Assembly: GCF_003634315.1 (NCBI RefSeq)
Contig: NZ_RBXL01000001.1
Location: 3,886,501 to 3,950,500 of the forward strand
DNA from: Thiocapsa rosea
GTDB lineage: Bacteria; Pseudomonadota; Gammaproteobacteria; Chromatiales; Chromatiaceae
Direction of reading: 5' to 3'
DNA length: 64,000 nucleotides
In this document: one piece after another, positions 34,099 through 62,054 of the stretch
Position numbering within the stretch: the first letter of the stretch is position 1
Layout of the letters: the number at the start of each line of letters is the position of its first letter
Translations under genes and position numbers: made by a program
The notes under the pieces: generated by a model
Database searches by the model: none
The model's input: the letters and a program-made list of their open reading frames with translations, nothing else
Told to the model about the DNA's origin: nothing

Positions 34099-34207
34099 AT
34101 TGCTTGCTGCTGAATTCAAGCCTGAATGCGTGCCGGCCGAGGTAGGTTGGTCGGGAGACGATTCCAGGCTTGAACCTCTATCCTGCGCTTTACCCATCAC
34201 GAAAACA

Positions 34208-34223
34208 GTAAAGATCTGTAAAG
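34208..34223 (-). promoter_or_regulatory. CTTTAC-N4-CTTTAC-type direct repeat box, site 1
   Basis: On the minus strand the site reads CTTTACAGATCTTTAC: two half sites with a 10-base period. It lies in the 368-base gap before the receiver-domain gene at 34421, pointing away from site 2. No gene is seen in this gap. Confidence 0.6.
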
Positions 34224-34252
34224 GACGCAAGAGCCGCCGCGCTCGGGGGCGC

Positions 34253-34268
34253 CTTCACGAATCTTTAC
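34253..34268 (+). promoter_or_regulatory. CTTYAC-N4-CTTTAC direct repeat box, site 2
   Basis: CTTCACGAATCTTTAC, period 10. A weaker reversed half-like site, CAAAGATCTTGAAG, follows at 34275-34288. Upstream of the receiver-domain gene. Confidence 0.6.
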
Positions 34269-34420
34269 TTGCCCCAAAGATCTTGAAGGAGGTTAATTTG
34301 GGGAAACTCGTGTCGGTTGAATCTCCCTGCCGACCGCGCCGGTTATACGGAACTTGATCCATTCAGTCTGGGATGGACCTTAGGGACAGGTTCCGAAGGG
34401 TCCTTATCAGCGGAGTCACC

Positions 34421-35008
34421 ATGCATCCCACCGTCCTTGACGACGACACTCGTATCGAAGCTGGATCCGGGTGTTTTCTAAAGCCGATCCAAGGAATTAT
34501 GTTCGGTGCATCCGGGACTGCCGAGGAGCAGCGGCGGAACGTCACACCTTGCTTCGGACCTGTCGATCGGGTCCTGCGCCAGGCAGCGTTCGAGCAATCC
34601 TCGGGCCGCTATCCGGGTACCGACGCAGCTCGCATCATGGTCGTCGATGACGACCTGCTTCTGCTGCGTGCCACGTCGCGCCTCGCGATCTCCTGGGGTT
34701 ACCAATGTGAGACCTACAGCGAACCTCACCGCGCGCTCCTCGCTGCCGAGGCGAGCGCGCCTGACCTCTTGATCGTCGACATCTACATGCCCTACATCGA
34801 TGGGTTCGAGGTGATCAAACGGATGCGGACGATGGGCGGCGCAACCCGCATCCTCGCCGTCAGCGGGGATGCCGGTTACGGGCAGCGGACCCACGTGCTC
34901 GATATCAGTCGCGTCATGGGGGCAGATGCCGTGCTCGAAAAACCAATCGTTGCCTGGTTATTGCGGGCGACCGTCAAGCGCCTGATTGGTCCCGCCGATC
35001 GCGACTGA
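34421..35008 (+). CDS. Stand-alone response regulator receiver protein
   Basis: A 195-residue protein. The N-terminal 70 residues match nothing I recognise. Residues 74-190 are a receiver domain: MVVDDDLLLLRATSRLAISWGY, phospho-acceptor D120 in LIVDIYMP, and the conserved Lys in LEKPI. It has no output domain. The receiver is closely similar to the second receiver of the REC-EAL-REC protein at 50998 (shared WGY.CET, LLIVDIYMP, DGFE.IKRMR), so one copy likely arose by duplication. ATG 34421 has GGAG upstream. Confidence 0.85.
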   Translation: MHPTVLDDDTRIEAGSGCFLKPIQGIMFGASGTAEEQRRNVTPCFGPVDRVLRQAAFEQSSGRYPGTDAARIMVVDDDLLLLRATSRLAISWGYQCETYSEPHRALLAAEASAPDLLIVDIYMPYIDGFEVIKRMRTMGGATRILAVSGDAGYGQRTHVLDISRVMGADAVLEKPIVAWLLRATVKRLIGPADRD

Positions 35009-35064
35009 ATCCGGATCTCGGGCAATCGGAGCGCACGCGCGGTCAAGCATTTCCTCTGCTCCTT

Positions 35065-35080
35065 CTTCACAAATCTTTAC
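35065..35080 (+). promoter_or_regulatory. CTTYAC-N4-CTTTAC direct repeat box, site 3
   Basis: CTTCACAAATCTTTAC, period 10, about 145 bases upstream of the sigma-54 activator gene. Confidence 0.6.
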
Positions 35081-35224
35081 CCCTCGCGCGGCGCGGATGG
35101 TCCACCATTGGGAGGTTGAAGTTCATGGGGCCCGGGAGACCCAGCGGATGGTTTGCGCGACCAACGCGCCGAAACCGGACTTGATCCGGTACCCGAACGC
35201 CTACCCAAGCATCGGAAATCAACA

Positions 35225-36631
35225 ATGATGAACAAGGAAACGAACGATTGGTCGGACGTCATCCTTGTCGTGGATGACGACGACAGCATGCTGCGAATCC
35301 TGCAGCTTCTCCTTCAGCGTGCAGGCTATGGGGTCATCACGGCCCGTTCGGCGGGGGAGGGGCTGCGCCTATCGGAGACTTACGGGCCGAGTCTGGCGAT
35401 CCTCGACTGGAAACTGCCGGACATGACCGGGCTGGAACTCTTGCGTCAGCTCAAGCTCGCTCTCCCGGATCTGCCGGTGATCCTTCTGACCGGGTTCGCC
35501 AATCTGGAAGGCGCGGTCAGCGCCATCAAGGAAGGCGCCTACGATTATCTCGCCAAGCCAATGGGTAACAAAGAATTTTTAGCCAGGGTTCAGGGGGCGT
35601 TGGAGCATGATTCACGTCCCTTCCCGGTCATTGGGGGTCGGGATCCGCTGACCGAGCGGATGGGGACAAGCACGGCGATCACGCGAACCATCGAGGACAT
35701 CGAGCGGGTGGCACCCACGGACTTCTCGGTGAACCTGTTCGGGGAGACCGGCTCGGGCAAGGAGGTGGTCGCCCATGCGATCCACGAGGCCAGTCCCAGG
35801 GCGAAGCAGCCCTTCGTTGCCGTCGACTGCGGTGCAATCCCGGAGTCTTTGATCGAGAACGAGTTGTTCGGCCACGAGCGCGGCGCCTTTACGGGTGCGG
35901 ATCGGCAACAGGCGGGACGGTTCGAAGCCGCCGACGGCGGGACGCTGTTTCTCGACGAGATCACCAATTTGTCCCTATCGGCGCAGGCTCGGCTCTTGCG
36001 GGTTCTGCAGGAACGGGTCATCTACCGGGTCGGGGGCAGCACGCCGATCCCGGTCGACGTGCGGCTGATCTCGGCGAGCAACCGGCAGTTGGCCGATGCG
36101 GTGAGCGAGGGCGGTTTCCGCGCCGACCTGCTGTATCGGCTGTCCGACTATCGCATCGCGATCCCGCCGCTGCGCGAGCGGCGGGAGGACATCATGCACA
36201 TCGCCAACCAGTTTCTGGTCGATGCGAACAGGGATCTGCACAAACACATCGGTCATTTCACGGACAAGGCCGTCCAAGCCATGTTGACCTACCACTGGCC
36301 GGGCAATGTGCGTGAGCTCAGGAGCGTCGTGCGTCGTGCGGTCTTGATCGCGCAATACCTCATCGATGTCAATCACCTTGACCTCCCGGAGTCCGGGTTC
36401 CGAACCCAGTCGAATCCGCTAGGCGAGTCCATAGCCACCCAAATGGATCCGGACAGCGAAGGTTTCTCGCTCAAGGAGATCGTGCGCGCACGGGTCGAGC
36501 ATCTGGAACGGGAGGTCCTCTCGAGCGCCCTGCGACGCCACAACGGCAACAAGGCGGCGGTGGCTCGGATGCTCCAAGTGGACTACAAGACGGTTCACAC
36601 CAAGTTGAAGGCCTACGGATTGGGGGTGTGA
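35225..36631 (+). CDS. NtrC-family sigma-54-dependent response regulator
   Basis: A 468-residue regulator. The receiver domain spans about 12-125 with phospho-acceptor D61 (LAILDWKLPD). The AAA+ domain spans about 148-385: Walker A GETGSGKE, the sigma-54 contact loop GAFTGA, and TLFLDEI. A Fis-type helix-turn-helix ends the protein (NKAAVARMLQVDYKTVHTKL). It activates sigma-54 promoters from upstream sites. It heads an overlapping operon with two GvpF/L genes, a histidine kinase and a receiver protein, and a sigma-54-type promoter precedes gvpA. It is therefore the probable direct activator of gas vesicle synthesis (inference). Confidence 0.92.
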   Translation: MMNKETNDWSDVILVVDDDDSMLRILQLLLQRAGYGVITARSAGEGLRLSETYGPSLAILDWKLPDMTGLELLRQLKLALPDLPVILLTGFANLEGAVSAIKEGAYDYLAKPMGNKEFLARVQGALEHDSRPFPVIGGRDPLTERMGTSTAITRTIEDIERVAPTDFSVNLFGETGSGKEVVAHAIHEASPRAKQPFVAVDCGAIPESLIENELFGHERGAFTGADRQQAGRFEAADGGTLFLDEITNLSLSAQARLLRVLQERVIYRVGGSTPIPVDVRLISASNRQLADAVSEGGFRADLLYRLSDYRIAIPPLRERREDIMHIANQFLVDANRDLHKHIGHFTDKAVQAMLTYHWPGNVRELRSVVRRAVLIAQYLIDVNHLDLPESGFRTQSNPLGESIATQMDPDSEGFSLKEIVRARVEHLEREVLSSALRRHNGNKAAVARMLQVDYKTVHTKLKAYGLGV

Positions 36632-36638: not shown

Positions 36639-37391
36639 GTGGACGCGTTCTATTGTTTCTGTTTCGCACCGGCCTGTTTGGCGTCGGATCTGAGATTCGA
36701 TGACTGCGGTTGGGAAGACCCGATCGAGATCCGGCGTCTTGCTGGACTGGATGTCATCCTCAGTCGCGTGCCTCTCGGGCGCTTTGCAGGTGCCGAGGCG
36801 GAGCAACGGCTCGCCGATCTCGAGTGGCTGGTGCCGCGTGCGCAGGCCCATGATCGGGTGATTACACGCACCATGGAACGGTCGACCGTGTTCCCGCTGA
36901 CCTTCGCCACCTTGTTCTCCTCGCTGCCGGCCCTTGCTCTCGAGGTGGCCGCGCGACGCCGTGCCCTGCTCGACTTCTTCGAGCGTATGGCCGGGCGTGA
37001 GGAATGGGCAGTCAAGGTCTCGATGGACCGCGAGCGGGTCATCGCCACGCGGATGCAGTCGCTCTATCCGGAAGGAGGGGACGTGCCCGCCGGGGGGCGC
37101 GGTTATCTCCTGAAACAACGGCGCCGCGGCGAGGCCGAGCAGGCCATCGGCCCCTGGCTGAAGGGACAGATCGGGTGTCTGGACGAGGCGTTGCGGCCGA
37201 GCTGCGAGACGCTCCTGATTCGGCCCCTGCGTGACGAAATGGTCGCGAGTCGGGCCTGTCTGGTTGCTCGCGATCTGGGTCCGTCGCTGAGCGAAGCGAT
37301 CGAGCGGAGCCGCGAGGCGTTCGCGGACCAGGGCCTCGACCTGCATTGCTCGGGTCCCTGGCCACTGTACAGTTTTTGCGGGACACCATGA
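36639..37391 (+). CDS. gvpF: GvpF/GvpL-family gas vesicle protein (regulatory operon, copy 1)
   Basis: A 250-residue protein. It has the GvpF/L arrangement: an N-terminal domain with VITRTMERSTVFPLTFATLFSS, a helical C-terminal domain, and the closing signature CSGPWPLYSF. GvpF/L proteins are minor vesicle components or chaperones that contact GvpA. It starts with GTG 7 bases after the sigma-54 activator, and its stop overlaps the next gvpF/L. Being inside a two-component operon rather than the main gvp cluster is unusual. Confidence 0.85.
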   Translation: MDAFYCFCFAPACLASDLRFDDCGWEDPIEIRRLAGLDVILSRVPLGRFAGAEAEQRLADLEWLVPRAQAHDRVITRTMERSTVFPLTFATLFSSLPALALEVAARRRALLDFFERMAGREEWAVKVSMDRERVIATRMQSLYPEGGDVPAGGRGYLLKQRRRGEAEQAIGPWLKGQIGCLDEALRPSCETLLIRPLRDEMVASRACLVARDLGPSLSEAIERSREAFADQGLDLHCSGPWPLYSFCGTP

Positions 37392-38149
37392 GCGATCGGC
37401 CCCGTCCGATGCTCCATTGCATCCTGCGTTCTCCGCCCGGGTCGATCGCGCGTGCGGAGGCCGGTCTGCGCTGGATCGAGCGCGACGGGCTCGCGGCCTT
37501 GGTGGCCGATCGGGAACCGAGCGAGATTGCGGGCGCGAGCAGTGTCGGGCTCCAGCGCTACGCGGACATCGTCGCGGAGATCCATGCGTGCGCGGCGGTG
37601 ATCCCCGTGCGGTTCGGTTGTCTTTTAGCCGGCGACGAAGCGGTCGGGAAACTCCTCCACAGGTCCCGCGATCGATTGCACGGACTGCTCGATCAGGTCG
37701 GTGATTGTCTCGAGTTCGGTATTCGACTGCTGCTTCCGGCCGACGCGCCGGCAGCGACGGACGACGACGCGGCTCCGAGGCTGCATGCGAATGCGCCGAG
37801 TGACCCGCGCGCCGATCCGGACATGGGTCCGGGCCTTTCGCATCTTCTCGCGATCCGTCACCGCCTCGATGTGGAGGCGAGCCTTGCCGCGCGAGCACGC
37901 GAGGCGCGCGAGGTCATCAAGGGCCGGGTAGCCGGGCGCTTTCGAGAGGTCCGCGAGGAGCTTGGCCAGATCGACGGACGATCGTTGCTCTCGCTGTATT
38001 TCCTGGTTCCGCGCGAGCAGGGCGAACACTTTGTCGAATGTCTGCGGCAGGACGCGTCGAGTCTGCGCGGGACGGGACTCTTGACCGGTCCATGGCCCCC
38101 ATACAACTTCGTTGGAGCCATCGATGACGATATCCGATCACTGGATTGA
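37388..38149 (+). CDS. gvpL: GvpF/GvpL-family gas vesicle protein (regulatory operon, copy 2)
   Basis: A 253-residue protein related to its upstream neighbour. Motifs: AAVIPVRFGCLLAGDEAV near residue 68, an Ala/Asp-rich insert near 125-150, and the C-terminal GPWPPYNFVGAI. The start codon overlaps the preceding stop (ATGA), and its 3' end overlaps the histidine kinase gene by 26 bases, so all are translationally coupled. Role as a vesicle assembly chaperone is by family. Confidence 0.85.
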   Translation: MSDRPRPMLHCILRSPPGSIARAEAGLRWIERDGLAALVADREPSEIAGASSVGLQRYADIVAEIHACAAVIPVRFGCLLAGDEAVGKLLHRSRDRLHGLLDQVGDCLEFGIRLLLPADAPAATDDDAAPRLHANAPSDPRADPDMGPGLSHLLAIRHRLDVEASLAARAREAREVIKGRVAGRFREVREELGQIDGRSLLSLYFLVPREQGEHFVECLRQDASSLRGTGLLTGPWPPYNFVGAIDDDIRSLD

Positions 38150-39662
38150 AACGGTCGCGGACGATCCCGATAGCCCGCGGCCGCTCGGTGGAATCATGTT
38201 TCGAACCCTTTTCGACGCCATCCCCTCCTCGATCCTGGTGGTGGACGGTCGTCTGCGGATCGTGATGGCCAACCGCAACTTTTTGCGAAAAGGCAATCGC
38301 ACCGACGCGGAGACCCTCGGTCGGCGTTTCGAGGAGGTCTTTCCGGCTGCAATCGTCGAGCGGACCGATATCCTCGACTGCGTGCAACGTGTCTTCGTGA
38401 ACAATGAGCAGAGCCCCTTCCGACGGATTACCTTCCGTGCCCCGGGGATGCCCATGCGAACCTATTATTTTCGGGCGTTGCCGTTGCCGGCGAAGGGCAG
38501 GGTTGCCCATGCCATGTTTCTGATGGAGGACATCACCGAGCAGGAGCGTCTCAGCAAGGATATCCAGCGTGTCGAGCGTCATCTCGCCAGCGTAGTCGAG
38601 AGCGCCAGCGATATCCTGGTCTCCACCGACACCGACGGGCATATCCTCAGTTGGAATCGCGCGGCCGCACGCCTGACCGGTTATGCGGCCGAGGTCGTGA
38701 TGCATCGCGGATTCTCGGAGCTCTTTCTGGAAACGGAACGCCCGGAGGTCGAGATGGCCTTGTCCCGGGCGACGGTGTTGCCGGGCAGTCTGAACGAAGA
38801 GTGGACGCTGGGCACGGTATCCGGGGAGGGGATCGCGGTGTCCTGGACCATCGCGCCCATGTTGAGCGAGGACGGAACCCTGATCGGGATGGTTGCGGCC
38901 GGTCGTGATCTGACCGAGCGCTACCGAATGCAGTCCGAGCTGCTGCAGTCCCAGAAATTGGCGGCGCTTGGTGTGATGGCGGGCGGGATCGCCCATGAGA
39001 TCCGCAATCCCCTGGCGGTCTGCTCCTCGGCAGCCCAGTTTCTGCTCGACGACTCCTTGGAGCCGGAGCTGCAACGCGAATGTGTCGAGAAGACGATCGC
39101 GGGTGTCAGCAAGGCATCCGAGATCATCGAGAATCTGCTGCGCTTCGCGCGCCCCTGCGCCGTGGAGAAGATGACCCTGGTGGAGCCGGTTGCACTGCTC
39201 GAGCGGGCCCTTTCGGTCGTGAGTCACCAGGCGCAGATCGCACGCATCGAGGTCGAGATGCAGGTCGGCGATCGGCCGCTCTGGGTGCGCGGTGTCCCGA
39301 GCCTGCTTGAGCAAGCGTTCCTCAATCTCTTTCTCAATGCCATGGCGGCCATGCCGGCGGGCGGTCGACTCTCCATCGCTGTCGACCAAGAGGTCGAAGA
39401 GGTTTCGGTGCGCATCAGCGACACCGGGGTCGGCATCCACGCGGCGCACATCGTCAGGATCTTCGATCCCTTCTACACCCGCTCGCCGATCGGGCATGGT
39501 ACAGGGCTCGGTCTGTCCATCTGCTATTCGATCATTGAACAGCATCGGGGACGGATCGACGTGCAAAGCGAGGTCGGAATCGGAACCTGTTTCTGCGTCC
39601 GCCTGCCCTTGGCCGAACCGCCGTGCCCCGGCGAGGGCGACGTCCGTTCGTGCCGTGAGTGA
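38124..39662 (+). CDS. PAS-domain sensor histidine kinase (NtrB-like)
   Basis: A 512-residue soluble kinase with no membrane segment. Two PAS domains occupy about 25-145 and 150-270 (SWNRAAARLTGYAAEVV in the second). The HisKA box has H291 in GGIAHEIRNPLA. The HATPase domain carries NLFLNAMAAMPAGG, DTGVGI and GTGLGLSI. It probably phosphorylates the sigma-54 activator three genes upstream and/or the small receiver protein downstream. Being cytoplasmic, it should sense an internal cue such as redox or energy state; the ligand is unknown. Confidence 0.92.
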   Translation: MTISDHWIETVADDPDSPRPLGGIMFRTLFDAIPSSILVVDGRLRIVMANRNFLRKGNRTDAETLGRRFEEVFPAAIVERTDILDCVQRVFVNNEQSPFRRITFRAPGMPMRTYYFRALPLPAKGRVAHAMFLMEDITEQERLSKDIQRVERHLASVVESASDILVSTDTDGHILSWNRAAARLTGYAAEVVMHRGFSELFLETERPEVEMALSRATVLPGSLNEEWTLGTVSGEGIAVSWTIAPMLSEDGTLIGMVAAGRDLTERYRMQSELLQSQKLAALGVMAGGIAHEIRNPLAVCSSAAQFLLDDSLEPELQRECVEKTIAGVSKASEIIENLLRFARPCAVEKMTLVEPVALLERALSVVSHQAQIARIEVEMQVGDRPLWVRGVPSLLEQAFLNLFLNAMAAMPAGGRLSIAVDQEVEEVSVRISDTGVGIHAAHIVRIFDPFYTRSPIGHGTGLGLSICYSIIEQHRGRIDVQSEVGIGTCFCVRLPLAEPPCPGEGDVRSCRE

Positions 39663-40609: not shown

Positions 40610-40626
40610 CTGGCACGGCACATGCT
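40610..40626 (+). promoter_or_regulatory. Sigma-54 (-24/-12) promoter of the gvpA operon
   Basis: CTGGCACGGCACATGCT matches the sigma-54 consensus YTGGCACGRNNNTTGCW at every defined position but one. The invariant GG (40612-40613) and GC (40624-40625) are separated by the required 10 bases. It gives a leader of about 180 bases before gvpA. A sigma-54 activator gene lies in the operon immediately upstream. Confidence 0.8.
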
Positions 40627-40818
40627 CTATAAGAATCAAGCAACCCGACAGGCAGGACGCCGAACGAGGAGTCGCAAGGATCATCGAGGGTATCCGATGG
40701 CTGAACGACTTCGTTGGGGCCGGGGTAAAGGGAGCACGGGATTCGATCCAGGCCCGCCGGGTTCGCTTACAACGCACATTCCGTGCATTCGTCCAGACTC
40801 TTTATTAGGACAGAGATC

Positions 40819-41037
40819 ATGGCAAAAGTAGCAAATTCCACCGATTCCTCCAGTCTCGCCGAAGTCGTTGACCGGATCCTCGACAAGGGCATCGTGATCG
40901 ACGCGTGGGTGAAGGTCTCCCTGGTCGGCATCGAGCTGTTGGCGATTGAGGCCCGTGTGGTGATCGCCTCCGTCGAAACCTACCTCAAGTATGCAGAGGC
41001 CATCGGCCTGACCGCTCCGGCAGCTGCTCCGGCTTGA
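40819..41037 (+). CDS. gvpA: Gas vesicle structural protein GvpA
   Basis: A 72-residue protein. The conserved core runs [30 protein letters not shown], quoted here in parts, then [20 protein letters not shown]. It is the main shell protein of gas vesicles, forming the hydrophobic-inside ribs. Length and sequence match GvpA across phyla. AGGA precedes the ATG. It is the first gene after the sigma-54 promoter and is cut off from the rest of the operon by a strong hairpin, as expected for the most abundant product. Confidence 0.97.
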
Positions 41038-41055
41038 TCTAGGGGCTAGTACCTC

Positions 41056-41105
41056 GGGAGATGCCGCTCTTATGCTCGGGGCATCGCCTCGAGGCGGCAT
41101 CTCCC
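41056..41105 (+). promoter_or_regulatory. Intercistronic stem-loop between gvpA and the GvpC-like gene
   Basis: GGGAGATGCCGC (41056-41067) pairs perfectly with GCGGCATCTCCC (41094-41105). An inner hairpin CTCGGGGC-ATC-GCCTCGAG extends it. No T-run follows, so it would stabilise the gvpA message or partly block read-through rather than fully terminate. Similar gvpA-gvpC hairpins are known in cyanobacteria. Confidence 0.85.
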
Positions 41106-41205
41106 GCCGGGTCAGGCGGCCGTCCGCGCCGAGCCCGGTCGTCGGGTGGCGCGAAGGCCTGCTTGCTCGGGGTCGGATTCCGCAACCTGATACAAGGAGC
41201 ACACC

Positions 41206-41931
41206 ATGGGCCGTTTTACCGAAGACATGGGGCGGCTGCGCGACGAGATCGCATCGGACCGCACCAACCGTCATACCCTGATCGCCGAGACCCGCGAGGA
41301 GATTTCGGCCAGCGCGCTCGCTTTCATGACCAATCTGAAGGACAGCGTCGAGACACTCCAGAGCCGGTTCCACACGGATTTCGCCGAGATGGCGCAATCC
41401 GGCCGGGCTGACCGCAACGCCTTTATGACACAGCTGGGCAGCGAGGTCGCCGATCTCCGTGTCGAGGCCGCGGCACAGCGCGACGCGGCTCGCCGGTCCT
41501 TCGCCGAGTCGGCCGCCGAGGCGCGTGCCGAGCGAGCCAGCCAAGGCGCCGCGATGCGCGAGGATGTCTCCCGACTGCAGGATGGATTTCGGCAGGCAAG
41601 AGGCGAGATGGCGACCGAGGTACGGGCTGCCGGAGAAGCCTTCGTGGCCGACATCGTCGATGCCGTTACAGGCCTCAGGCGCGAGACCGTCCAACTGGTC
41701 GATGACCTGAGTCGCGAACGTGCCTCCGCCCGCGAGGCTTGGCGTGGCGGCATGGCGAAGGCCCGGCCACCGGCCTCGGCCCCCTCCCCCGCAGCGCGTC
41801 CGAAGGCGCACGCCAAACCGGCGCCGAAGCCGTTCGTTGCCGCCGATTCGATGGCGAAACCGGAGGACAAACCGGCCAAGCCGGAGCCGAAACCTGCTCG
41901 GGCCCGAGACGAGGGATTCAAGACCGACTGA
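41206..41931 (+). CDS. GvpC-like gas vesicle outer-surface protein (candidate)
   Basis: A 241-residue, strongly helical, charged protein. The segment AFMTNLKDSVETLQ (from residue 39) recurs as AFMTQLGSEVADLR exactly 33 residues later. Weaker repeats follow (AAMREDVSRLQ, AFVADIVDAVTGLR). A 33-residue helical repeat is the hallmark of cyanobacterial GvpC, which clamps the outside of the GvpA shell. The position between gvpA and gvpN also matches gvpC. Residues 180-241 are a Pro/Ala/Lys-rich tail. No direct sequence match to a GvpC was established, so the call rests on repeat period and position. Confidence 0.65.
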   Translation: MGRFTEDMGRLRDEIASDRTNRHTLIAETREEISASALAFMTNLKDSVETLQSRFHTDFAEMAQSGRADRNAFMTQLGSEVADLRVEAAAQRDAARRSFAESAAEARAERASQGAAMREDVSRLQDGFRQARGEMATEVRAAGEAFVADIVDAVTGLRRETVQLVDDLSRERASAREAWRGGMAKARPPASAPSPAARPKAHAKPAPKPFVAADSMAKPEDKPAKPEPKPARARDEGFKTD

Positions 41932-42018
41932 TCCGGCAGGACCGGCCGAGCGTCAAGGAATCCACCACTGTGCGGGGCCCGGGAGGCCCCGTGCCCAATC
42001 GATGCCAGGACAACACAC

Positions 42019-43017: not shown

Positions 43018-43018
43018 G

Positions 43019-43411: not shown

Positions 43412-43455
43412 GCCAAGAAGGCACGGCGGGAAACATTCGAGCGAGAGGTCCAGAG

Positions 43456-44220: not shown

Positions 44221-44293
44221 CGCCGCAACCTGTTCCGCAATCGGGGTCGCAGCGGTGCCGATGGTGCAACACTGGTCCCCTCGGAGGTAAACC

Positions 44294-44590: not shown

Positions 44591-44802
44591 TGCTCGCGAT
44601 CGGCGAACACCCGGACTGCCCGGAAGAAATCCAAAGGGTCTCGCTGTGCGAGGCGCTCGATCGAATCCTGAACAAGGGAGCGGTGGTCTCCGGCGAGCTA
44701 ACCATTGCGGTCGCAAACGTCGACCTCTTGTATCTCAGCCTGCAACTGGTCATCACCTCGGTCGAGACGGCAAAGCGGGAGATGCTTTATGTCCGACACT
44801 AG
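44587..44802 (+). CDS. gvpS: GvpA-family minor protein, GvpS/GvpJ type
   Basis: A 71-residue member of the GvpA/J/M/S family. The core reads SLCEALDRILNKGAVVSGELT then LQLVITSVETAKREM. The NKG.VVSGE segment is more like GvpS/GvpJ than GvpA. Such proteins are thought to nucleate the vesicle tips. It overlaps gvpG by 4 bases and gvpK by 14, so it is tightly coupled. Confidence 0.85.
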   Translation: MMLAIGEHPDCPEEIQRVSLCEALDRILNKGAVVSGELTIAVANVDLLYLSLQLVITSVETAKREMLYVRH

Positions 44803-52705: not shown

Positions 52706-55700
52706 GTGAACCAGCAGTCCAGCCCCGGCGCCACCATGAGCCCGATCCGCACCGTGGCGCTCACGGTCCTGCTGACCCTGCTCGCGGTGGTCGGCAACCA
52801 TTTCAATCTCTCGCTTTTCTTCGGTCTGCAGATCATCTTCGGATCTGTGGCCGTTCTCCTGGCCATTGTCTGGTTCGGGACCCGTGCCGGCCTGATCGTC
52901 GCCGCCGCCTCCGGTGCCTATACCTATTTCCTTTGGGATCATCCCTTTGCCCTGTTGATCTTCTTGGCCGAAGCGGCCTTCGTGGGCTGGCATCGGGATC
53001 ACGCGCGACGGCGAGGCCGCGCGACGCCGGATCTCGGTGTCTCGGTGATGCTCTACTGGGTCTTGATCGGCATCCCCTTGGTTCTGCTGTTCTACCGTGG
53101 TGTCATGGAGATGGTCTGGCACCAGACCCTGGTGGTCGCGGTCAAGCAGGCCTTGAACGGCATCCTGAACGCGGCCTTGGCCGGGCTGGTGGTCATGGTC
53201 GTGGCCGCGATGAGACGTCGCTCCGGCAGCCTCTCGGCACGGCAGGTGTTGTTCACGCTGTTCCTCTCGGGATTTCTGTTGCCGTCGATTCTCGTCGTTG
53301 CTTGGGAGAATTACGATCTCAAGGATCGTCTGGAGCAGGATCTTGCCGACCGCCTGAGGACATTCGGTGTGCTCACGATTCACGAGCTCGATACAGGTCC
53401 ACGTGGAACGTCCCCCGAAGCGGCCGAGATCCACCTGGATCATGTGCGGGAGATGGCCCGACTCTTCGGCAACACATTGCCTGAGTACGCCAAGCTCGAG
53501 GTGCGTCTGATCGGACCGGCCGGTGACCCCGGGCCTCCCGCAGGTGCGCCGAATGCCCGTACCGCCCGCACCGCGGCCGATGATTTGATGATCCTGGCAC
53601 CGGAGGATTGGCATCCCTCGCGGATGGCGTTCTGGTGGCAGTCGCGCTATCGCATGATCCTGCCGCTTGCTGAACCGACAGTCGGCGAGGGACTCTTGAT
53701 CGAGCTCAGCGCGGCTACGCTGGTCGACAAGCTGCAGCACACGGTGCTGCGTCTGCTGACGCTCCTGTTGGCGATCGCTGCGATCGCGATCCTGCTGGCG
53801 GACCGATTCGCACTGTTGCTGGTGCGTCCATTGAATCAGCTCGTTGGGATCGCTGCCGACTTGCCGGCGCGGATCGTCGCGGGCGAGACCCCGGCCATCC
53901 CGTCGCCCGGGCTCTTGGCCGAGGGCCGGGCCCTGACCGACGCCTTCGGTGTCATGTCCCGGGGTCTCTCCGAGAGCTTCGCGATGATCGAGCGTGAGCG
54001 CGATGCGCAATCCCGGCTGCGCTCCGTTCGTGATCTGCAGGCGAAGATGTTGGCCGGTTTGATGACGTCCGGGGAGGACGAACGCACGGCCGCGGAGCGC
54101 CTCTGTGCCCTGGTTGAAGGGATAGCCCCGGGATGCCGGTGCGTCTTGTTCAAGAAAGGCTTGGCCGATTCACGTGTGCACTTCGCCGGGGGCGGCCTCG
54201 GTGCCGGCGAGTACGCGGAACTGGAGCGCCGGGTGCGCGAACGGGATCCCGCAGGCGTGAGCCGGATGGACTCCGCCAGCCGGTTCTTTGTCGTGGAGTC
54301 GGCTCGGGATGCGACCGATAGGCGGCAGACCGACATCCTCTCGGCCGGGGGCGAGGCCTTCTGGTGGTGCTCCGACATCATCACGCAGGATAACCAGTGT
54401 GCCGGTGTGCTTGCGATCGGGCCGTGTCCCTCGCGCGAGCCCGACGCGGACGTACCCGAGATCCTCGAGGCGGCCGCGGACCTGGCCGCGCTGGCATTCG
54501 AGACCTTGCGCACCCGCCAACGGCATGCCGTCCTCATCAAGGCGTTGTCGCAGGCCGGCACCGGGATCGTCGTCGCAGGCCGAGTTGCCGGGGCCGATTA
54601 CCGCATCAGCTACGTCAACCAGGGCTTCGAGACGCTGACCGGCTATCGCGCGGACGAGGTGATGGGCCTGAATTGTCGTTTTCTCCAGGGCGATGACCGC
54701 GGTCAGCCGGAACGCGCGCGGATTCGGGCCGCGCTTGCGTCCGGCGAGCCCTGCCAGGTCACGCTGCGAAACTATCGCAAGGATGGAACGGCGTTCTGGA
54801 ACGCCTTGAATGTCGCCCCGCTGGTCGATTCGCGCGGCGAGGTCACGCACTACGTCGGCATCCAACAGGACATCACGGCGGTCAAGGAGGCCATGGAGCG
54901 TCTGGCCCGCAGCGAAGCCATGTTGCGCGAGGCGCAGGCGACTGCGCATCTGGGTACTTGGGACCTCGATTACGACAGCGGCCGAATCGAATGGTCCGAC
55001 GAGGCGTTTCGACTGCTCGGTTATGCGCCGGGCGCCGTGACGCCGAGCCTGGATGCGTTTTGTGCGGCTGTGCCCGAGGAGGATGCCGCGCGCGTTCGGG
55101 CGGAGATGGAGTCGGTCATCACCCGCCCCGATGGTCGTTTTGTCGTGGAGCATCGGGTGCAGGGTGCGAACGGCGTGCAGCGGATCCTCCGCGCGGAAGG
55201 TCGCGTCCATTTCGCCGATAACGGGACACCACTGCGTCTGTCCGGAACCGCCCTCGATATCACCGCGCAGCGCGCAATCGAAGAGGCCCTGCGCAGTCAG
55301 GAGGAACGGTACCGTCTGGTCGTAGAGAACATCGAGGATCTGGTCGTCCGCATGGATGCCGAGGGACGATTCGAGTACGTCAGTCCATCCTACTGCAGAC
55401 TCTTCGGTCGCGACGAGGCCGGGTTGATCGGGCATCACTTTTTGCCGAACGTCCATCCGGCTGATCGTGATGCAACGACTGCCGCGATGAATGCCCTCCG
55501 CCACCCGCCGTACACCTGCCTGTTCGATCAACGCGCCAGAACGGTCAAGGGATGGCGGTGGTTGCAGTGGGTCGATCGCGCTCTTGTCGACGGGGAAGGC
55601 CGAATCCACTCGATCATCGGAATCGGCCGAGATATTACCGAGCGCAAGACCGCAGAGCTCGCGCTGACGCAGGAGCGTCGCCGTCTCGCCGACATCATCG

Positions 55701-58700
55701 ACGGGACACAGGTCGGGACCTGGGAGTGGGATCTCGTCACGAATGACTTGACGCTCAATCCGCGCTGGGCCGAGATGCTCGGCCGCCGTCTCGAGGATCT
55801 GGAGCCGACCACGATCGAGACCTGGCAGATGTTCTGTCATCCCGAGGATCTCTCGAGGTCCGAGAGTGAGGTCGCTCGGCATCTCTGCGGCGAGACCGAC
55901 CATTACCGTTGCGAGCTGCGGATGTTGCACGACGATGGCAGTTGGATCTGGATTCAGGATCAGGGGCGCGTCTCGGCGCGCGACGCGCAAGGTCGGCCGC
56001 TGCGCATGGCGGGTATCCATGAGGATATTACGGTCCGCCGAGAGGCCGAGATCGAGCTGATGCGGCGCGAGTCCCTCGAGCGCGAGCTGCTCGGGCTGGC
56101 CTCGGATTTCGTCGCTGTCTATGATGAGAATCTCGACCCGCTGATCAACCGAACCCTCGAGCGGCTCGGCGGCTTTACCGAGTCCGATCGGGCCTATGTG
56201 TTCCGATTCGATCTGGTTGCCGACACCATGAGCAACAGCCATGAGTGGGTGGCCCAGGGGGTCGAGCCGATGATCGGTCATCTGCAATGCCTTCCGATCG
56301 ATCACTTCTCCGCCTCGATGCATCTTCTCAAGTCCGGACAGGCCGCCGTGGTCCCGCGTGTGGCGGAGCTCCCGGACGCCTGGGCCAAGGAGCGCGAGAT
56401 CCTGCAGTTCCAGTCGATCCTGTCGGTCGTGCTGGTGCCCCTGCTGCAGAATGAGCGCCTGATCGGGTTTGTTGGCTTCGACGCGGTGCAGGTGCCGCGG
56501 GACTGGTCGGAGGCGGAGGTCCGCTTTCTGCGGGTCTTTTCCAGCATCCTGGTGAGCGCATTCGAACGGGCCCGCACCTACGCGGAGCTTCGCGAAAGCA
56601 ATCTGCGCTATGACCAGCTCGCGTTGCATAGCCGAACCGTCAACTGGGAGGTGGACGCTGATGGTCTCTTCATCTATCTCAGTCCGACGGTCGAGACCGT
56701 TTGGGGCTACCGTTGCGAGGACCTGATCGGCCGGAAGCACTTCTTCGATCTGGCGCCCGAGGCGTCGCGAGACAGCCTTAAGGCCGAGACATTGCACAGC
56801 TTCGCGCGCTTGGATCACTTCACCGATTACGTCAATCCCATCCGTTGCGCCGACGGCTCGACGATCTGGGTACTGAGCAGCGGTGCTCCGGTCGTCGCCG
56901 AAGACGGCACGCTGCTCGGATACCGCGGCACGGATGTGGATATCACCGAGCGGCATCGGGTCCAGGAGCAGCTTGAGAAAAGCGAGGCCCGTCTGAGTGC
57001 GATCTTCGAGAATGCACCCCTCGGGATCTCGATCGTGGGTCCCAACCGGCGACTGCATCTGGTCAACCGCGCGCTCGGCGAGTTTCTCGGCTATTCATCG
57101 CAGGATCTGGTCGGAACGGGCATTGATGAGATCACCTTTCCGGATGATCTTGCGACGGAACTCGTCCTGTTCGGGGAGCTTATGGCGGGAAAACGCAACT
57201 TCTACCGAATGACCATGCGCTATCGCAAGGCCGATGGCTCGCTTGCGTGGGGTGATCTGCGGGTTGCCGTGTTGCCCGGCGGAAGCAGCGAGCGGCCCCT
57301 GACGCTCGCGATGGTCGAGGATATCACCGAGTTTCAGGCCGCGACCGAGCGCAAACGCGAACTCGAGGGGACGCTTCTGCGCTATACCAATAGCCTGGAA
57401 TCGCTGGTCGATCTGGCAAGCCAGGCATTGCCTGCGGCCGAGGAGCTGCTCGCTCTTCTTCAGCTCGGCTGCGTCGGTCTGGGCATGGACGCCGGAGAGA
57501 TCAGTGAGATTCGAACGGATCAGACCCCTCACCCGATTGTACGTTTTCCGCCCGCGGATGCACCCGGGAGCGCTTCCGAGGCCTCTATCCCGGAGGACAC
57601 GGCAGGGCAGGAGACGATTGACGCGGAGCCGGGCGTTCCTCATGTCCTGTTCGGAGCCGCGTTGCCGGCGGCGACAGCAAACGCGGGGTACCTCGTTTGC
57701 GTCCGTATGGCGTTGAGCTGGATCGGACCGAACGGTCGGGCCAACGACCTGGTGATCAGGTTCCTGGGTCACGCCGAACGCTCCGAGCTGTCCGGACCAG
57801 AGCGCGAGCTCGTCCGCCTGCTTGGCCAGCGCATCGTCGCACAGCAATACCAGAGGCAACTTCAGGCCGCGCTCATCAGCGCGAAGGAGCGCGAGACCAT
57901 CGGTCATCTGGCGAGCGGCGTGGCGCACGACTTCAACAACCTGCTCGGGGTGATCGACGCCAATCTCTATTATCTGGAAGCCATCCTGAGCGGTGAGCAG
58001 GGCGATCCGGAGGTGGCTCAGGTCATCGAAGAGACCCAGAGTGCGCTCGGTCAAGCGAAGGTCGTCACCTCGGGGATGCTCTCGCTCAGTCGCGCAGGCG
58101 GCATCGTGCTGGAGCGCGTGGCGCTCGAGAAGACGATTCGCGAGCTGGTGACGATCATCAGACAGGTCCTCCCGGCCAAGATCAACCTCGGGCTGGATCT
58201 CGAGCCCGGCCTCGCGGCCGAGAGCAATGCCTCATTCCTGCAGGCCGCGTTGCTGAATCTCGTGCTGAACGCGCGCGATGCGATGCCCGATGGCGGGGAT
58301 CTCCTGATCGCCGTGCAGACGGTCGTCTGGGATGCCTCCGTCCCGCTGGCCGTCGGTCGACTCGATCCGGGGGAGTATGTCCAGGTCCGGGTTGTCGACA
58401 CCGGGTGCGGGATGTCCGAGGAGGTTCTGGACAGGCTTTTCGAGCCGCTGTTCTCGACCAAGGCCAAACAACGCGGGCATGGACTCGGTCTGTTCATGGT
58501 GCAGGAGTTCGTCGTGCGCTCCGGTGCGGCCTTGGCCGTGTCCTCGCAAGTCGGCAAGGGCACCGAGTTCCGACTCCTGATGCCGATCGACCACCAAGAA
58601 TCCCCGCAGATCGACCGGATTGCGCCGTCGAACGCGCTTTCGATCACGCCCCTGCTGCGGGTTCTCGTCGTCGACGATGACCCGCGTGTCGCGGATTCCG

Positions 58701-59020
58701 TCGGGCGATTGCTGATGTTGGACGGCGCGCTGGTCTCGTTCGCCGAGAATGGCCAAGACGCCCTTGATCTCTTGCGACACGACGCCGACTTCGATCTGGT
58801 GTTGTCGGATCTGGCGATGCCCGTTCTCGACGGCGCTGCCCTGTGTGCCGAACTGACACAGGGGTTTCCGGATCTGAAGGTGATCCTGATGACCGGCCAG
58901 ACACCGTCGGCCTTCTCGCTCGATGCCTTGCCGTACGCGCCGCTCGTGCTGCGCAAACCCATCGATCACGGCGCCCTGAGGGCCGCGATCGCAGAGGCGA
59001 GCGCCCGAGTCGGCTCATAA
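52706..59020 (+). CDS. Giant hybrid sensor kinase with LOV photoreceptor domain, multiple PAS and GAF domains
   Basis: A 2104-residue protein. About seven membrane helices lie in residues 14-202. A periplasmic part (203-345), an eighth helix (347-370) and a HAMP-like region follow. Then: a GAF-like domain (455-601); a LOV domain (608-728) with the canonical GLNCRFLQG and photoactive C657, plus NYRKDGT.FWN and the flavin-switch Gln in GIQQD; PAS domains near 735, 862 and 995; GAF (1125-1288); PAS near 1298 and 1428; HisKA with H1741 (GVAHDFNNLL); an HATPase domain (GHGLGLFM); and a receiver with D2035. It should sense blue light among other cues. GTG start, GGAG upstream. It probably acts with the REC-EAL-REC protein. 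Confidence 0.93.
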   Translation: MNQQSSPGATMSPIRTVALTVLLTLLAVVGNHFNLSLFFGLQIIFGSVAVLLAIVWFGTRAGLIVAAASGAYTYFLWDHPFALLIFLAEAAFVGWHRDHARRRGRATPDLGVSVMLYWVLIGIPLVLLFYRGVMEMVWHQTLVVAVKQALNGILNAALAGLVVMVVAAMRRRSGSLSARQVLFTLFLSGFLLPSILVVAWENYDLKDRLEQDLADRLRTFGVLTIHELDTGPRGTSPEAAEIHLDHVREMARLFGNTLPEYAKLEVRLIGPAGDPGPPAGAPNARTARTAADDLMILAPEDWHPSRMAFWWQSRYRMILPLAEPTVGEGLLIELSAATLVDKLQHTVLRLLTLLLAIAAIAILLADRFALLLVRPLNQLVGIAADLPARIVAGETPAIPSPGLLAEGRALTDAFGVMSRGLSESFAMIERERDAQSRLRSVRDLQAKMLAGLMTSGEDERTAAERLCALVEGIAPGCRCVLFKKGLADSRVHFAGGGLGAGEYAELERRVRERDPAGVSRMDSASRFFVVESARDATDRRQTDILSAGGEAFWWCSDIITQDNQCAGVLAIGPCPSREPDADVPEILEAAADLAALAFETLRTRQRHAVLIKALSQAGTGIVVAGRVAGADYRISYVNQGFETLTGYRADEVMGLNCRFLQGDDRGQPERARIRAALASGEPCQVTLRNYRKDGTAFWNALNVAPLVDSRGEVTHYVGIQQDITAVKEAMERLARSEAMLREAQATAHLGTWDLDYDSGRIEWSDEAFRLLGYAPGAVTPSLDAFCAAVPEEDAARVRAEMESVITRPDGRFVVEHRVQGANGVQRILRAEGRVHFADNGTPLRLSGTALDITAQRAIEEALRSQEERYRLVVENIEDLVVRMDAEGRFEYVSPSYCRLFGRDEAGLIGHHFLPNVHPADRDATTAAMNALRHPPYTCLFDQRARTVKGWRWLQWVDRALVDGEGRIHSIIGIGRDITERKTAELALTQERRRLADIIDGTQVGTWEWDLVTNDLTLNPRWAEMLGRRLEDLEPTTIETWQMFCHPEDLSRSESEVARHLCGETDHYRCELRMLHDDGSWIWIQDQGRVSARDAQGRPLRMAGIHEDITVRREAEIELMRRESLERELLGLASDFVAVYDENLDPLINRTLERLGGFTESDRAYVFRFDLVADTMSNSHEWVAQGVEPMIGHLQCLPIDHFSASMHLLKSGQAAVVPRVAELPDAWAKEREILQFQSILSVVLVPLLQNERLIGFVGFDAVQVPRDWSEAEVRFLRVFSSILVSAFERARTYAELRESNLRYDQLALHSRTVNWEVDADGLFIYLSPTVETVWGYRCEDLIGRKHFFDLAPEASRDSLKAETLHSFARLDHFTDYVNPIRCADGSTIWVLSSGAPVVAEDGTLLGYRGTDVDITERHRVQEQLEKSEARLSAIFENAPLGISIVGPNRRLHLVNRALGEFLGYSSQDLVGTGIDEITFPDDLATELVLFGELMAGKRNFYRMTMRYRKADGSLAWGDLRVAVLPGGSSERPLTLAMVEDITEFQAATERKRELEGTLLRYTNSLESLVDLASQALPAAEELLALLQLGCVGLGMDAGEISEIRTDQTPHPIVRFPPADAPGSASEASIPEDTAGQETIDAEPGVPHVLFGAALPAATANAGYLVCVRMALSWIGPNGRANDLVIRFLGHAERSELSGPERELVRLLGQRIVAQQYQRQLQAALISAKERETIGHLASGVAHDFNNLLGVIDANLYYLEAILSGEQGDPEVAQVIEETQSALGQAKVVTSGMLSLSRAGGIVLERVALEKTIRELVTIIRQVLPAKINLGLDLEPGLAAESNASFLQAALLNLVLNARDAMPDGGDLLIAVQTVVWDASVPLAVGRLDPGEYVQVRVVDTGCGMSEEVLDRLFEPLFSTKAKQRGHGLGLFMVQEFVVRSGAALAVSSQVGKGTEFRLLMPIDHQESPQIDRIAPSNALSITPLLRVLVVDDDPRVADSVGRLLMLDGALVSFAENGQDALDLLRHDADFDLVLSDLAMPVLDGAALCAELTQGFPDLKVILMTGQTPSAFSLDALPYAPLVLRKPIDHGALRAAIAEASARVGS

Positions 59021-59044: not shown

Positions 59045-59060
59045 CTTTACATTTCTTTGT
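59045..59060 (+). promoter_or_regulatory. CTTYAC-N4-CTTTAC-like direct repeat box, site 5
   Basis: CTTTACATTTCTTTGT: the second half site has GT for AC. Period 10. It lies 39 bases before the unknown gene at 59099. Confidence 0.5.
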
Positions 59061-59098
59061 TGGAGCCGCGCAGCCCCGTTCGCGTAGGCTAGCCGCCT

Positions 59099-59719
59099 AT
59101 GCTCGATTTCCTTCTGAACCGCCTGCGACGCAGCGATCGGGAACGATATGCCGAGACAATCGGTAGTCAATCCGATTGCGCGTCCTTGTATGCGGGAATC
59201 ATCGCCGCGTCGGCCGCTTATGTCCCCGTGTGCTCGGGGCGCGAGGTTCGGGTCCATCGCAATCTTGATTTCGGCGCCGCGCAGCGTGAGGTGATGTCAT
59301 CTCTCGGACGCCCGGACCATGCCGTTTACGCCTTAAATCCATTGACCGAAGCAATCTTGGTCTACCGTTGTCGGTTGGAAGCCTGTCGGATTCGTGAAGA
59401 GCTCCATTTCTCACGGCACGGTCTCTTCTATGTCAACCGGACCTTGTCATCCATGTTGCCGAGGCAGGATGAGTTGATCCTACGGATACTGTCGGACAAG
59501 TACCTCGACGGGCAGCCGTTCGACGGCATCGACACGAAGATCGTCGATTCGCGTGGTCGTGAAATCGTGACGACCTCGGGTCCGCCGTTCGTCGTCGAAT
59601 ACCTTGCTGCCCTCGATCCGATCCTCTCCAGGCTCAGGGCGGATGCCGTGATCGACTCCTCGCAGCCACCGGGACTCGATCGGAATCAAAGGGCCAGTGC
59701 CATAAGCAGCTTGCTGTAG
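59099..59719 (+). CDS. Unknown protein, paralogue of the protein at 62815
   Basis: A 206-residue soluble protein with no domain I recognise. It shares with the protein at 62815 the blocks LGRP.H, NP.T.AILVYR.RLE, RIR.E.HFS.HGLFYV, PFDG and KIVDS.GREI, over nearly full length. The pair flanks an IS-type transposase and RfaH. A CTTTAC box lies just upstream, as for the regulatory genes, so it may belong to the same regulon. Confidence 0.8.
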   Translation: MLDFLLNRLRRSDRERYAETIGSQSDCASLYAGIIAASAAYVPVCSGREVRVHRNLDFGAAQREVMSSLGRPDHAVYALNPLTEAILVYRCRLEACRIREELHFSRHGLFYVNRTLSSMLPRQDELILRILSDKYLDGQPFDGIDTKIVDSRGREIVTTSGPPFVVEYLAALDPILSRLRADAVIDSSQPPGLDRNQRASAISSLL

Positions 59720-59868
59720 GTCGCGACGCGACGCGTCCTGTCGTCTCCGAACCCGTGAACGGCGATGTTGCTGCGCGAGGCTTGAGCTTGCTCCTCCGCT
59801 CTGCCAGGTCTCTGCTCCGAGCGGTGGACAAACGCAGTAGGTTAATGGACAAGCACCATAGGGTAATG

Positions 59869-59931
59869 GGACAAGCGCAGCGCAGTCCACCAGCGTCGGG
59901 CAGGGAGAGGTGGACTGCGCTGCGCTTGTCC
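59869..59931. repeat. Long perfect inverted repeat (23-base arms)
   Basis: GGACAAGCGCAGCGCAGTCC plus ACC (59869-59891) is matched exactly by its reverse complement at 59909-59931, with a 17-base loop. Partial GGACAA/GTGGACAA echoes lie just upstream (59824-59855). It is in the 546-base gap between the unknown gene and the transposase; I see no gene there and no clear IS end. Confidence 0.8.
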
Positions 59932-60265
59932 ACCCTTCGGATTTCGTTCGATTTTAGACGCGGCACTCGATCATTCCAAGCCGGCGCATGGCTTGCTGGC
60001 TGTCGCTCTCGCCCGTCCACCCCGACGGTTCGCAGCCCCGAGGCTGCGGAAGGTCATCATACTAATTTGTGCTCGACCGAAAACCCCGTTTTTTCCCGTC
60101 CCCGCACCCTGTCCTGAATGGCGGCCGGGAGCGAGTGTATTCAATCGAGCCTCATTCTATGGTCATTCGCGCAATCAAGCCGCTTAAATGAGAACGACTC
60201 GCATCACCGCCATACGGCAGGCGCACCACTCCCCTCGGAGGAGGCGCCCGGCCCGATCGACAGGG

Positions 60266-61768
60266 TCAAGCCGCGCGTCGTCGACGCTGTCGTTCTCGCT
60301 CGCGTCGTGCTTCCTCGGCCTCCCGCGCCAGCAGCAGCGCGCCGATGCGCTGGAGGTTGCGCGCCACCACCGCCAAGGCGACGTAACGCTTGAAGCCGTC
60401 GATCCCGTGATCGCGACAGCGGTCGAGCCCGTGGACCTCCAGCGCGTTGATGGCGGACTCCACGGCGGAGTGTTTGCGGCGCAGCTGGATGAAGCGCGGA
60501 TCGCCTTCGCGTGCGCGCTCCGCGGCCGAGCACTTGCCCTTTTTCGGCAGCACCGGAAAGTCGATCACCTCGGCCAACCCGCGTTGGTTGGCGGGGCTGT
60601 GGAAGCCCTTGTCCATACTCGCGCTGGCGACCGTCGGGAAGCGCTCCAGGGTCTCCTCCACCAGGGGTACGGCGACCTGATCGTCGGTGATACGCACCAT
60701 GACCCGATGGTGCAGGATGAAGCCGTGCTGATCTTCGACGATCGCCACGCGCAGACCCAGCTCCACCGGCACGCCGGCCTTGCCTTTGCTGATCCACTCG
60801 GTGTGGGGCTGGAAGATCGAGAAGACCTTCTCGGCATGCGGGATGGTCTGACCGCCCAGCACGCGGCGGCGAATCTGATCGATCTGCCGCTCGCCGTGGG
60901 CAATGAAGGCATCGAGCGGTTCGAGCAGGACGTTCGGCAGCGCCGCGATCAGGTGCAGGCGGAGACGCGTCTCGCGCGCCCGCAGCAGAAAGCCGCCGGC
61001 CAACTCCAGATAGGCGGCATGGGCCGCTTCGATCTCGACACGCCGTGCGGCTCGTTTGTCCGGATCCTGCGCGGTGGAGTGCTTGAGGGTTTGCGCCCGC
61101 CGATAGGCTTTCTTCAGGCAGCGCACGTTGTAGGCGCTTTGCCGCCAATCGCTCAGGCCGGCGTCCTCGCACAGCCCGGCGCTGGTTTCGATGGCCTTGC
61201 GCACGGCGTCGCAGAGCAGGTTGATGTCGGTCGGATAATGGACATGGGTCTCGACCACGAAGGAGTCACACCGCACCGCGAGGGGCTCGTCCGGACTGCT
61301 TTTGACCAGCGCATGGCCGGCATCCACGACCGCTTGGTTGATGCGCTCGAGCAGCTCGGGCGTGAACAGGCTCAGGTTGTCCTTGAGGGTCTGCAGGCTG
61401 TAGGTCGTGTCGTCGGCCCAGTCGGCATGGCCGAGCATCTTGCGCAGGGTGGTGTGCTGGTTGGCCAGCTCGAGAATCCGATCGTAGTCGGCATTGAGCC
61501 CCAAGCGCAGCACCCCGAGCACCAGGATCGCCCACTGCGACAGACCGGGTCGGCCGGTCTCGGGACGGGCCTTGCCGTCCTCGCCGCCGCCCGGCGGGCG
61601 CACCTCGGCAAGGATCGCGAACACGGGTTCGCGCAGCTGCGGGAGGGTGTAGATGTGCTGCAGTCCGCGCAGCAATTGCGGGATGTCGTCGCGCGAGCGC
61701 AGATCCAGCGCGATGGCGGCGATATCCTCCTCGCCGAGTTTCAATTGCGGATCGATGACGTTGCGCAT
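60266..61768 (-). mobile_element. DDE-type IS transposase (ISNCY/IS1182-like length)
   Basis: A complete 500-residue transposase. Likely catalytic Asp residues occur in AVRCDSFVVETHVHYPTD near 165 and in VASASMDKGFHSP near 380, and the Glu in RRKHSAVESAINALE near 440. The spacing fits DDE transposases of the ISNCY group. The gene looks intact, so it may be active. I could not identify terminal inverted repeats or a target duplication, so the element's ends are unknown. It separates the two unknown paralogues. Confidence 0.85.
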
Positions 61769-61971
61769 AGCGGTTCGAATAGCGAAGTTGATGAAGGCTC
61801 ATGGCGTGCCCCGGCGAAAGTAGGCCGAGATCGCTGTCAGGCCATCGTAAAATCAATAGTTTAGAGTTTTACCTGGCGCTCTCGATCGAAAATCGGCGAA
61901 ATCTTCGATCATGGAGTCATATTATAACCGACTGTTTGAGAATAGGAAAGTTGGTTTCTGTTCAGGCACTA

Positions 61972-61987
61972 ATTTACATTTCTTTAC
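61972..61987 (+). promoter_or_regulatory. CTTYAC-N4-CTTTAC-like direct repeat box, site 6
   Basis: ATTTACATTTCTTTAC, period 10, first base changed. The AC-ATTT-CTTT core is the same as in site 5, upstream of the paralogous region. It lies 68 bases before the small membrane protein that precedes rfaH. The rest of the gap from the transposase (61769-62054) shows nothing else. Confidence 0.5.
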
Positions 61988-62054
61988 TGTAGGTTGGAAA
62001 CCCGTTCGCTTAAGCTGCTCGACGACACTTCTTCATGGAGTCCGGGTCAAGATC

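Follow-up and report, generated by a model that had tools for sequence, protein, structure and literature searches.

Introduction

The systems closest to the locus considered here are known for the control of gas vesicles and for the direct-repeat sites of OmpR-family regulators. In Serratia 39006, gvpA1 has a sigma-54 site and is controlled by the NtrC-like protein GvrA, and the activator operon of GvrA, GvrB and GvrC lies apart from the gvpA operon (PMC4982088). Homologs of GvrA and GvrC occur in Thiodictyon syntrophicum Cad16, a member of the Chromatiaceae (PMC5944118). Among binding sites, the CpxR consensus is GTAAA-N5-GTAAA (PMC12802237), and in Salmonella the distance between PhoP box and -10 hexamer is 21-23 nucleotides at rstA and ompX, with rstA requiring the alpha C-terminal domain (PMC3335776). 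Here we describe a direct-repeat box, CTTYAC-N4-CTTTAC (CTTYACNNNNCTTTAC), found around a gas vesicle island in 64,000 nucleotides of Thiocapsa rosea DNA (contig NZ_RBXL01000001.1, positions 3,886,501 to 3,950,500; this whole stretch is called the window). With a probability of roughly three in four, we take the boxes to be binding sites of an OmpR/PhoB-type response regulator encoded at 50095, which would activate the genes that follow them.

The locus resembles each of these systems in part. As in Serratia, the NtrC-like activator operon and the gvpA operon, with its sigma-54 site, are distinct; unlike there, the GvrA-like operon would be subject to a putative OmpR-type activator, which connects it with cyclic di-GMP (c-di-GMP) and sensor genes, and no such box is mentioned in the available part of the Serratia report (PMC4982088). 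For the gas vesicle genes of Thiodictyon syntrophicum, likewise, the part of the report at hand describes neither an OmpR-type regulator nor a box (PMC5944118). The Cpx regulon of E. coli and Pseudomonas shares the GTAAA-N5-GTAAA direct repeat and an OmpR-family regulator, but here the boxes accompany genes for signalling and gas vesicles, the genome has a CpxR-like gene besides the one at 50095, and the 50095 protein scores below the CpxR cut-off. The PhoP box of architecture III (rstA, ompX) is also a hexamer direct repeat in direct orientation, its 21-23 nucleotides comparing with a mean peak at 22-25 here, but it has (T/G)GTTTA with a 5-nucleotide spacer instead of CTTTAC with 4, and both regulator and targets differ.

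A search of titles and the beginnings of abstracts found no description of such a regulon among the papers listed, and the literature so far as it was available gave none of the control of gas vesicle formation in purple sulfur bacteria. With a short list of sites, a single candidate regulator and a relay that can be predicted, the question becomes testable, and the answer would connect c-di-GMP signalling with buoyancy.

Distribution of the box

An earlier note on this DNA had listed six sites, each of two hexamers with a 10-base period, and all of these sequences were found in place:

Box B, 34208-34223, minus strand: CTTTACAGATCTTTAC, exact; before a candidate small RNA
Box C, 34253-34268, plus strand: CTTCACGAATCTTTAC, exact; upstream of the receiver gene
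Box D, 35065-35080, plus strand: CTTCACAAATCTTTAC, exact; upstream of the sigma-54 activator operon
Box A, 50854-50869, plus strand: CTTTACAATGCTTTAC, exact; upstream of the REC-EAL-REC gene
Box E1, 59045-59060, plus strand: CTTTACATTTCTTTGT, two mismatches; upstream of the 59099 gene
Box E2, 61972-61987, plus strand: ATTTACATTTCTTTAC, one mismatch; upstream of the group small gene - rfaH - 62815 gene

The consensus first given thus holds exactly for four of the six (34208-34223 on the minus strand, 34253, 35065 and 50854) and was overstated for the 61972 and 59045 sites, which are kept in the set because they are conserved. The note had also placed the boxes upstream of particular genes; this stands for all but the 34208 box, which points away from the receiver gene and faces the probable small RNA. 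None of 100 dinucleotide shuffles contained the pattern. Within the window a seventh site with two mismatches lies at 34178, and positions 1-34177 hold nothing with two mismatches or fewer, as had been claimed for the housekeeping half.

A random spread over the genome had been named as an outcome that would speak against a regulon, and it was not seen. In the 6,111,855 bases of the whole genome (two contigs) there are four exact boxes, all of them in this window and within 16.7 kb of one another, and the reversed pattern has none. By simple arithmetic the chance of three further independent sites landing in the same 16.7 kb is about 2e-8. The box is a genuine signal, occurring far more often than chance would allow. 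When one mismatch is allowed the genome yields 18 matches (5 in the island) against 16 for the reversed control, which puts the box-like matches outside the island at chance level. The 13 one-mismatch matches outside the island, against 16 control matches, were considered as additional targets and rejected, 11 of them lying inside stop-free frames of at least 270 codons; among the 13, L015 alone has a good -10-like hexamer, at offset 26. A degenerate pattern admitting all six sites, drawn up only after they had been seen, has eight matches in the genome, six of which are the noted sites, against two in the control; the two extra matches were rejected as sites.

The regulator and its linkage to the box

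The 50095 protein carries a receiver domain and a winged-helix Trans_reg_C domain (Pfam scores of 89.3 and 57 bits, both above cut-off), which places it in the OmpR/PhoB family. It fails the curated CpxR model (111.8 bits, cut-off 341) and the curated PhoB model (161.6 bits, cut-off 296.2). The stretch DRTVDVHIGNIRRKL, which we take to be the recognition helix, is similar to DRAIDMHISNLRRKL in CpxR of E. coli, and most of it is conserved among aligned relatives. The gene seems to begin with ATT at 50095-50097, preceded by AAGGAG and, at a distance of five codons, by an in-frame TAA; ATT stands at the same place in G001 (both copies), G002, G003, G005, G006 and G008, with ATG in G009. Initiation at AUU is known from infC and pcnB.

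That this regulator is the candidate binder, as the earlier note proposed, finds support in comparisons within the genus and beyond. The genus set consists of 11 genomes, our own (G000) and ten others. Exact boxes number four in our own genome, seven in G001, five in G005, two in G003, and one each in G002, G004, G008 and G009, and are absent from G006, G007 and G010, a total of 22 against 3 in the reversed control. An ortholog of the 50095 protein with at least 79% identity is present in 8 of the 11 (our own, G001 twice, G002, G003, G005, G006, G008 and G009); the relative in G007 is 58% identical, and the best in G004 and G010 reach 38-40%. All but one of the 22 exact boxes fall in the eight genomes with the close ortholog. 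In all eight, a box with at most two mismatches precedes the REC-EAL-REC gene (exact in four, one mismatch in G005 and G006, two in G008 and G009), two-mismatch sites being shown in this comparison only when one half retained TTTAC.

The other boxes likewise reappear in front of or beside the same genes. The place of box B, beside a moaB/cinA-like gene, is occupied in G002 (one mismatch), G003 and G005 (both exact), and that of box C, before the receiver gene, in G001 (one mismatch) and G005. Box D is exact before the same gene in G001 and has one mismatch in G007; it is also kept in G005, where the fetched stretch lacks the activator operon. A box after the hybrid kinase is kept in G001, G003, G005 and G008, and G002 and G009 carry a variant of it with CTTCAT. 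Box E1 is identical in G001, and box E2 is kept in G001, G003, G005 and G008. Not every match fits this picture: the 3-kb loci around the G004 match and around one match in G005 (C62) contain no gene known from the window, a match in G001 (2779048) has as its neighbour a gene with only 37% likeness to the sigma-54 activator, the exact box of G009 stands before a CpxR-like gene, and three G001 boxes belong to a near-identical repeat.

Outside the genus, regulator relatives at an E-value of 1e-50 or better bring the total to 30 of 210 family genomes and 7 of 61 genera. Loci were fetched for 20 of the 31 relatives outside the genus, making 347 kb together with the G007 locus; they contain 6 exact, 12 one-mismatch and 23 two-mismatch boxes, against 0, 0 and 11 in the reversed control. 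At least one box with no more than one mismatch is found in 12 of the 20 other-genus loci, and most of these boxes adjoin the regulator gene on the side of the REC-EAL or kinase gene. Beside regulator relatives the box is exact in four other genera (g29, g35, g42, g64) and has one mismatch in a fifth (g23). In complete scans of 21 other-genus genomes with a regulator relative there are 20 exact boxes against 19 control matches, and eight of the 20 lie within 200 bp of the relative (G111, G114, G115, G126, G174, G175, G178 and G203); for G111, G114, G115, G126 and G203 this is the sole exact match in the genome. The fetched locus of G179 has no more than a two-mismatch variant, and its four exact genome matches are not near its regulator relatives. 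Across 96 family genomes drawn evenly, our own included, 57 exact boxes stand against 49 in the reversed control, so that the box is no general feature of the family. When named genomes were scanned with the regulator, the best 80 of 587 relatives reached 42% identity at most, and they were set aside. In genus g42 the two-mismatch variant (T/A)TTTACAGTTTTTTAC occurs near kinase and REC-EAL genes in three genomes (L220 7325, L224 7759, L226 5242).

The repeat might instead be a shared promoter sequence, or copies left by a mobile element, with no dedicated regulator. Three of the G001 boxes do lie in near-identical repeats (class F: L167 2230, L168 9248, L178 8012), in each of which TAGTTT follows an exact box at about 24 nucleotides, and in the window a long minus-strand reading frame between the 59099 and 62815 genes (60266-61768) is transposase-like, as judged by reading alone. 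Yet the flanks of the six window sites are mostly dissimilar beyond the box, boxes E1 and E2 sharing the stretch CCCGTTCGC, and the linkage of box to regulator reaches other genera; we therefore consider this explanation highly improbable.

A second alternative is that a CpxR-type regulator encoded elsewhere binds the boxes and that the 50095 protein is a mere neighbour. On the other strand the box reads GTAAAG-N4-GTAAAG, which contains the CpxR consensus GTAAA-N5-GTAAA (PMC12802237). That consensus is matched by three of the six boxes (34208, 50854 and 61972); at 34253 and 35065 one half reads GTGAA, and 59045 is more divergent. In G009, moreover, a gene with 47% identity to CpxR of E. coli has an exact box (L180 9792) some 95 bp upstream. 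Against this, a CpxR-like gene (best match 40-47% identical) is present in all 11 genus genomes, however many boxes they have. Among these are G004, with one exact box, and G010, with none, both of them lacking a close ortholog of the 50095 protein. This genome's own CpxR-like gene (44%; G000:C1:1824881-1825564) has no box with 0-1 mismatches within 8 kb. This distribution leads us to prefer the 50095 protein and to regard a CpxR-type binder as unlikely. A shared ancestral type of site would explain the likeness between the two boxes. Neither this resemblance, nor the phasing with -10 hexamers, nor the probable small RNA featured in the earlier note.

Arrangement of the putative promoters

Scored with a general -10 matrix, 21 sites taken together have their highest mean at offsets 22-25 downstream of the box, a peak reached by none of 1000 shuffles. 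Several of the 21 promoters are related; in a reduced set of 11 less related sites the peak falls at the same offsets and is reached by none of 2000 shuffles. In the window, box C is followed by TAATTT at offset 25, box E2 by TAAGCT at offset 23 and box E1 by TAGGCT at offset 24, the second-best hexamer there. This mean layout is near that of the PhoP-activated rstA and ompX promoters, which makes the boxes look like activator sites, and it is consistent with sigma-70-type promoters that would be activated from them. The -10-like hexamer after box E1 is very close to the ATG (59045-59099), which suggests that the mRNA may be almost leaderless.

It is also conceivable that the 50095 protein binds the boxes but represses. 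Sites alone do not reveal the sign of regulation, and OmpR-type proteins are able to activate or to repress. The mean phasing of 22-25 nucleotides upstream of a -10-like hexamer, in direct orientation, is nevertheless the layout of an activator, as at PhoP-dependent rstA and ompX, and repression seems to us quite improbable.

A number of observations weigh against activation by the 50095 protein, and they concern both promoters and linkage. The -10 phasing is an average, the single best hexamer being at 22-25 in 11 of the 21 sites; the six window sites alone peak at offset 34, with 22 almost equal (P 0.025), and in this genome neither box B, at offsets 22-25, nor box D is followed by a good -10. 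No box with two mismatches or fewer precedes the 50095 gene itself in this genome. Beyond the genus, 8 of the 20 loci have no box with 0-1 mismatches, only two-mismatch forms or none, and 12 of the 20 exact matches in the 21 genomes are not near the regulator gene. Finally, the G009 box before a CpxR-like gene means that the motif need not belong to one protein.

Genes of the island and the proposed circuit

The genes that the boxes accompany, all on the plus strand, are as follows (assignments from Pfam unless otherwise stated):

34373-35008: single-receiver protein (Response_reg); the start may be 34421
35153-36631: response regulator of the sigma-54 activator type, resembling GvrA in layout; the start is probably 35225
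36639-39662: two GvpF/L proteins and a PAS histidine kinase
40611-40626: sigma-54-like -24/-12 site before gvpA, TGGCACGGCACATGCT
40783-49004: gas vesicle genes (two Gas_vesicle proteins, an AAA protein in the position of gvpN, GvpF/L, GvpK, GvpH and others) and a CDC48-type ATPase
50095-50781: OmpR/PhoB-type response regulator (Response_reg and Trans_reg_C), proposed box binder; apparent ATT start
50998-52689: REC-EAL-REC protein of c-di-GMP phosphodiesterase type (EAL and two Response_reg stretches)
52706-59020: PAS/LOV-GAF hybrid histidine kinase of 2104 residues, with the motif GLNCRFLQ
59099-59719: protein 45% identical to the 62815 protein (by comparison of the two)
62055-63435: 60-residue protein, RfaH/NusG-type protein (NusG) and 62815 protein

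According to the mechanism we propose, the phosphorylated 50095 regulator would bind the two CTTTAC hexamers head-to-tail as a dimer and, from a position two helical turns upstream of the -10, could activate sigma-70-type promoters. Its direct targets would be the operon of the REC-EAL-REC protein and hybrid kinase, the single-receiver gene, the sigma-54 activator operon and two paralogous genes, one of them behind rfaH, with the small RNA under box B as a probable further target. The likeliest source of phosphate may be the adjacent hybrid kinase.

The sigma-54 activator operon probably links the box to the gas vesicles, through a relay that would run from the regulator by way of box D to the sigma-54 activator and on to the gvpA operon. 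The site at 40611-40626, 156 nucleotides before gvpA, is the sole sigma-54-like site in the window with at most one mismatch, where 1.3 would be expected by chance, and the sigma-54-like element TGGCAC-N6-TGC also precedes gvpA in G001. The 35153 protein, an NtrC-like sigma-54 activator within a gvp cluster that has a sigma-54 site before gvpA, corresponds to a GvrA-type protein, a likeness based on layout.

The earlier note had suggested that the boxes join motility or biofilm signalling, light sensing and buoyancy. The connection to c-di-GMP signalling and buoyancy is read from gene content; the part played by light is weaker. GLNCRFLQ, an instance of the GXNCRFLQ flavin-cysteine motif of LOV photoreceptors, occurs at residue 654 of the 52706 kinase and the motif is also found in five further genus genomes, but the loci of G001, G005 and G007 yielded none, and neither did 15 of the 20 loci from outside the genus. 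The kind of element is an ordinary one, an OmpR-type regulon, yet it would bring together gas vesicles, c-di-GMP signalling and sensing, and the comparative case for it is strong for a prediction drawn from a single window. We suggest, tentatively, that it could be a new OmpR-type regulon of the Chromatiaceae, in which one activator circuit would connect the sensing of blue light or chemicals with c-di-GMP breakdown, a small RNA of its own and buoyancy; the AUU-started regulator might activate its own sensor operon in a positive feedback and the gas vesicles through the sigma-54 relay, so that one signal would choose between attaching and floating.

The 59099 and 62815 proteins are paralogous; the gene of the first follows box E1 and that of the second lies behind rfaH after box E2. 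Neither has a Pfam or NCBIfam match, and the 60-residue protein has none in Pfam. Relatives of the pair occur in 13 of 210 family genomes, and in L222 (G120:C31) two of them flank a regulator copy, one on each side. A fold prediction for the paralogous protein from the two sequences was discarded (mean predicted local distance difference test score, pLDDT, 34.5).

Candidate small RNA

Box B faces the 3' end of the gene at 33279-34052, which is moaB/cinA-like as judged from its sequence alone. In a four-genome alignment the conserved stretch between them closes, on the minus strand, with a hairpin and a run of eight T:

34046-34185 (extent of the model match), minus strand: candidate small RNA, with a hairpin and a terminator-like hairpin followed by eight T

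This element is probably a small RNA. A covariance model (R1) built from the four genomes and run over the 11 matched those four at E-values of 1e-34 or better, and gave lower-scoring matches in G001 (two), G008 and G005 at 5e-11 or better; since R1 was built from four similar sequences, its covariation is no strong proof. At positions 33000-64000 no Rfam family matched at its gathering score, and a low-threshold match to ar7 (16.5 bits against a gathering score of 60, E-value 0.44) was taken as chance.

Weak R1 matches (E-values of 1.4e-5 to 0.0055) also occur about 200-580 nucleotides from a CpxR-like gene in 9 of the 11 genomes, our own included. At L255 1501-1580 (G000:C1:1825939-1826018) there is a similar element of hairpin and T-run, with GCAGCAAGC and the loop ACACACCC. 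It sits after a small open reading frame that diverges from the CpxR-like gene, a layout that recalls cpxP/CpxQ of E. coli.

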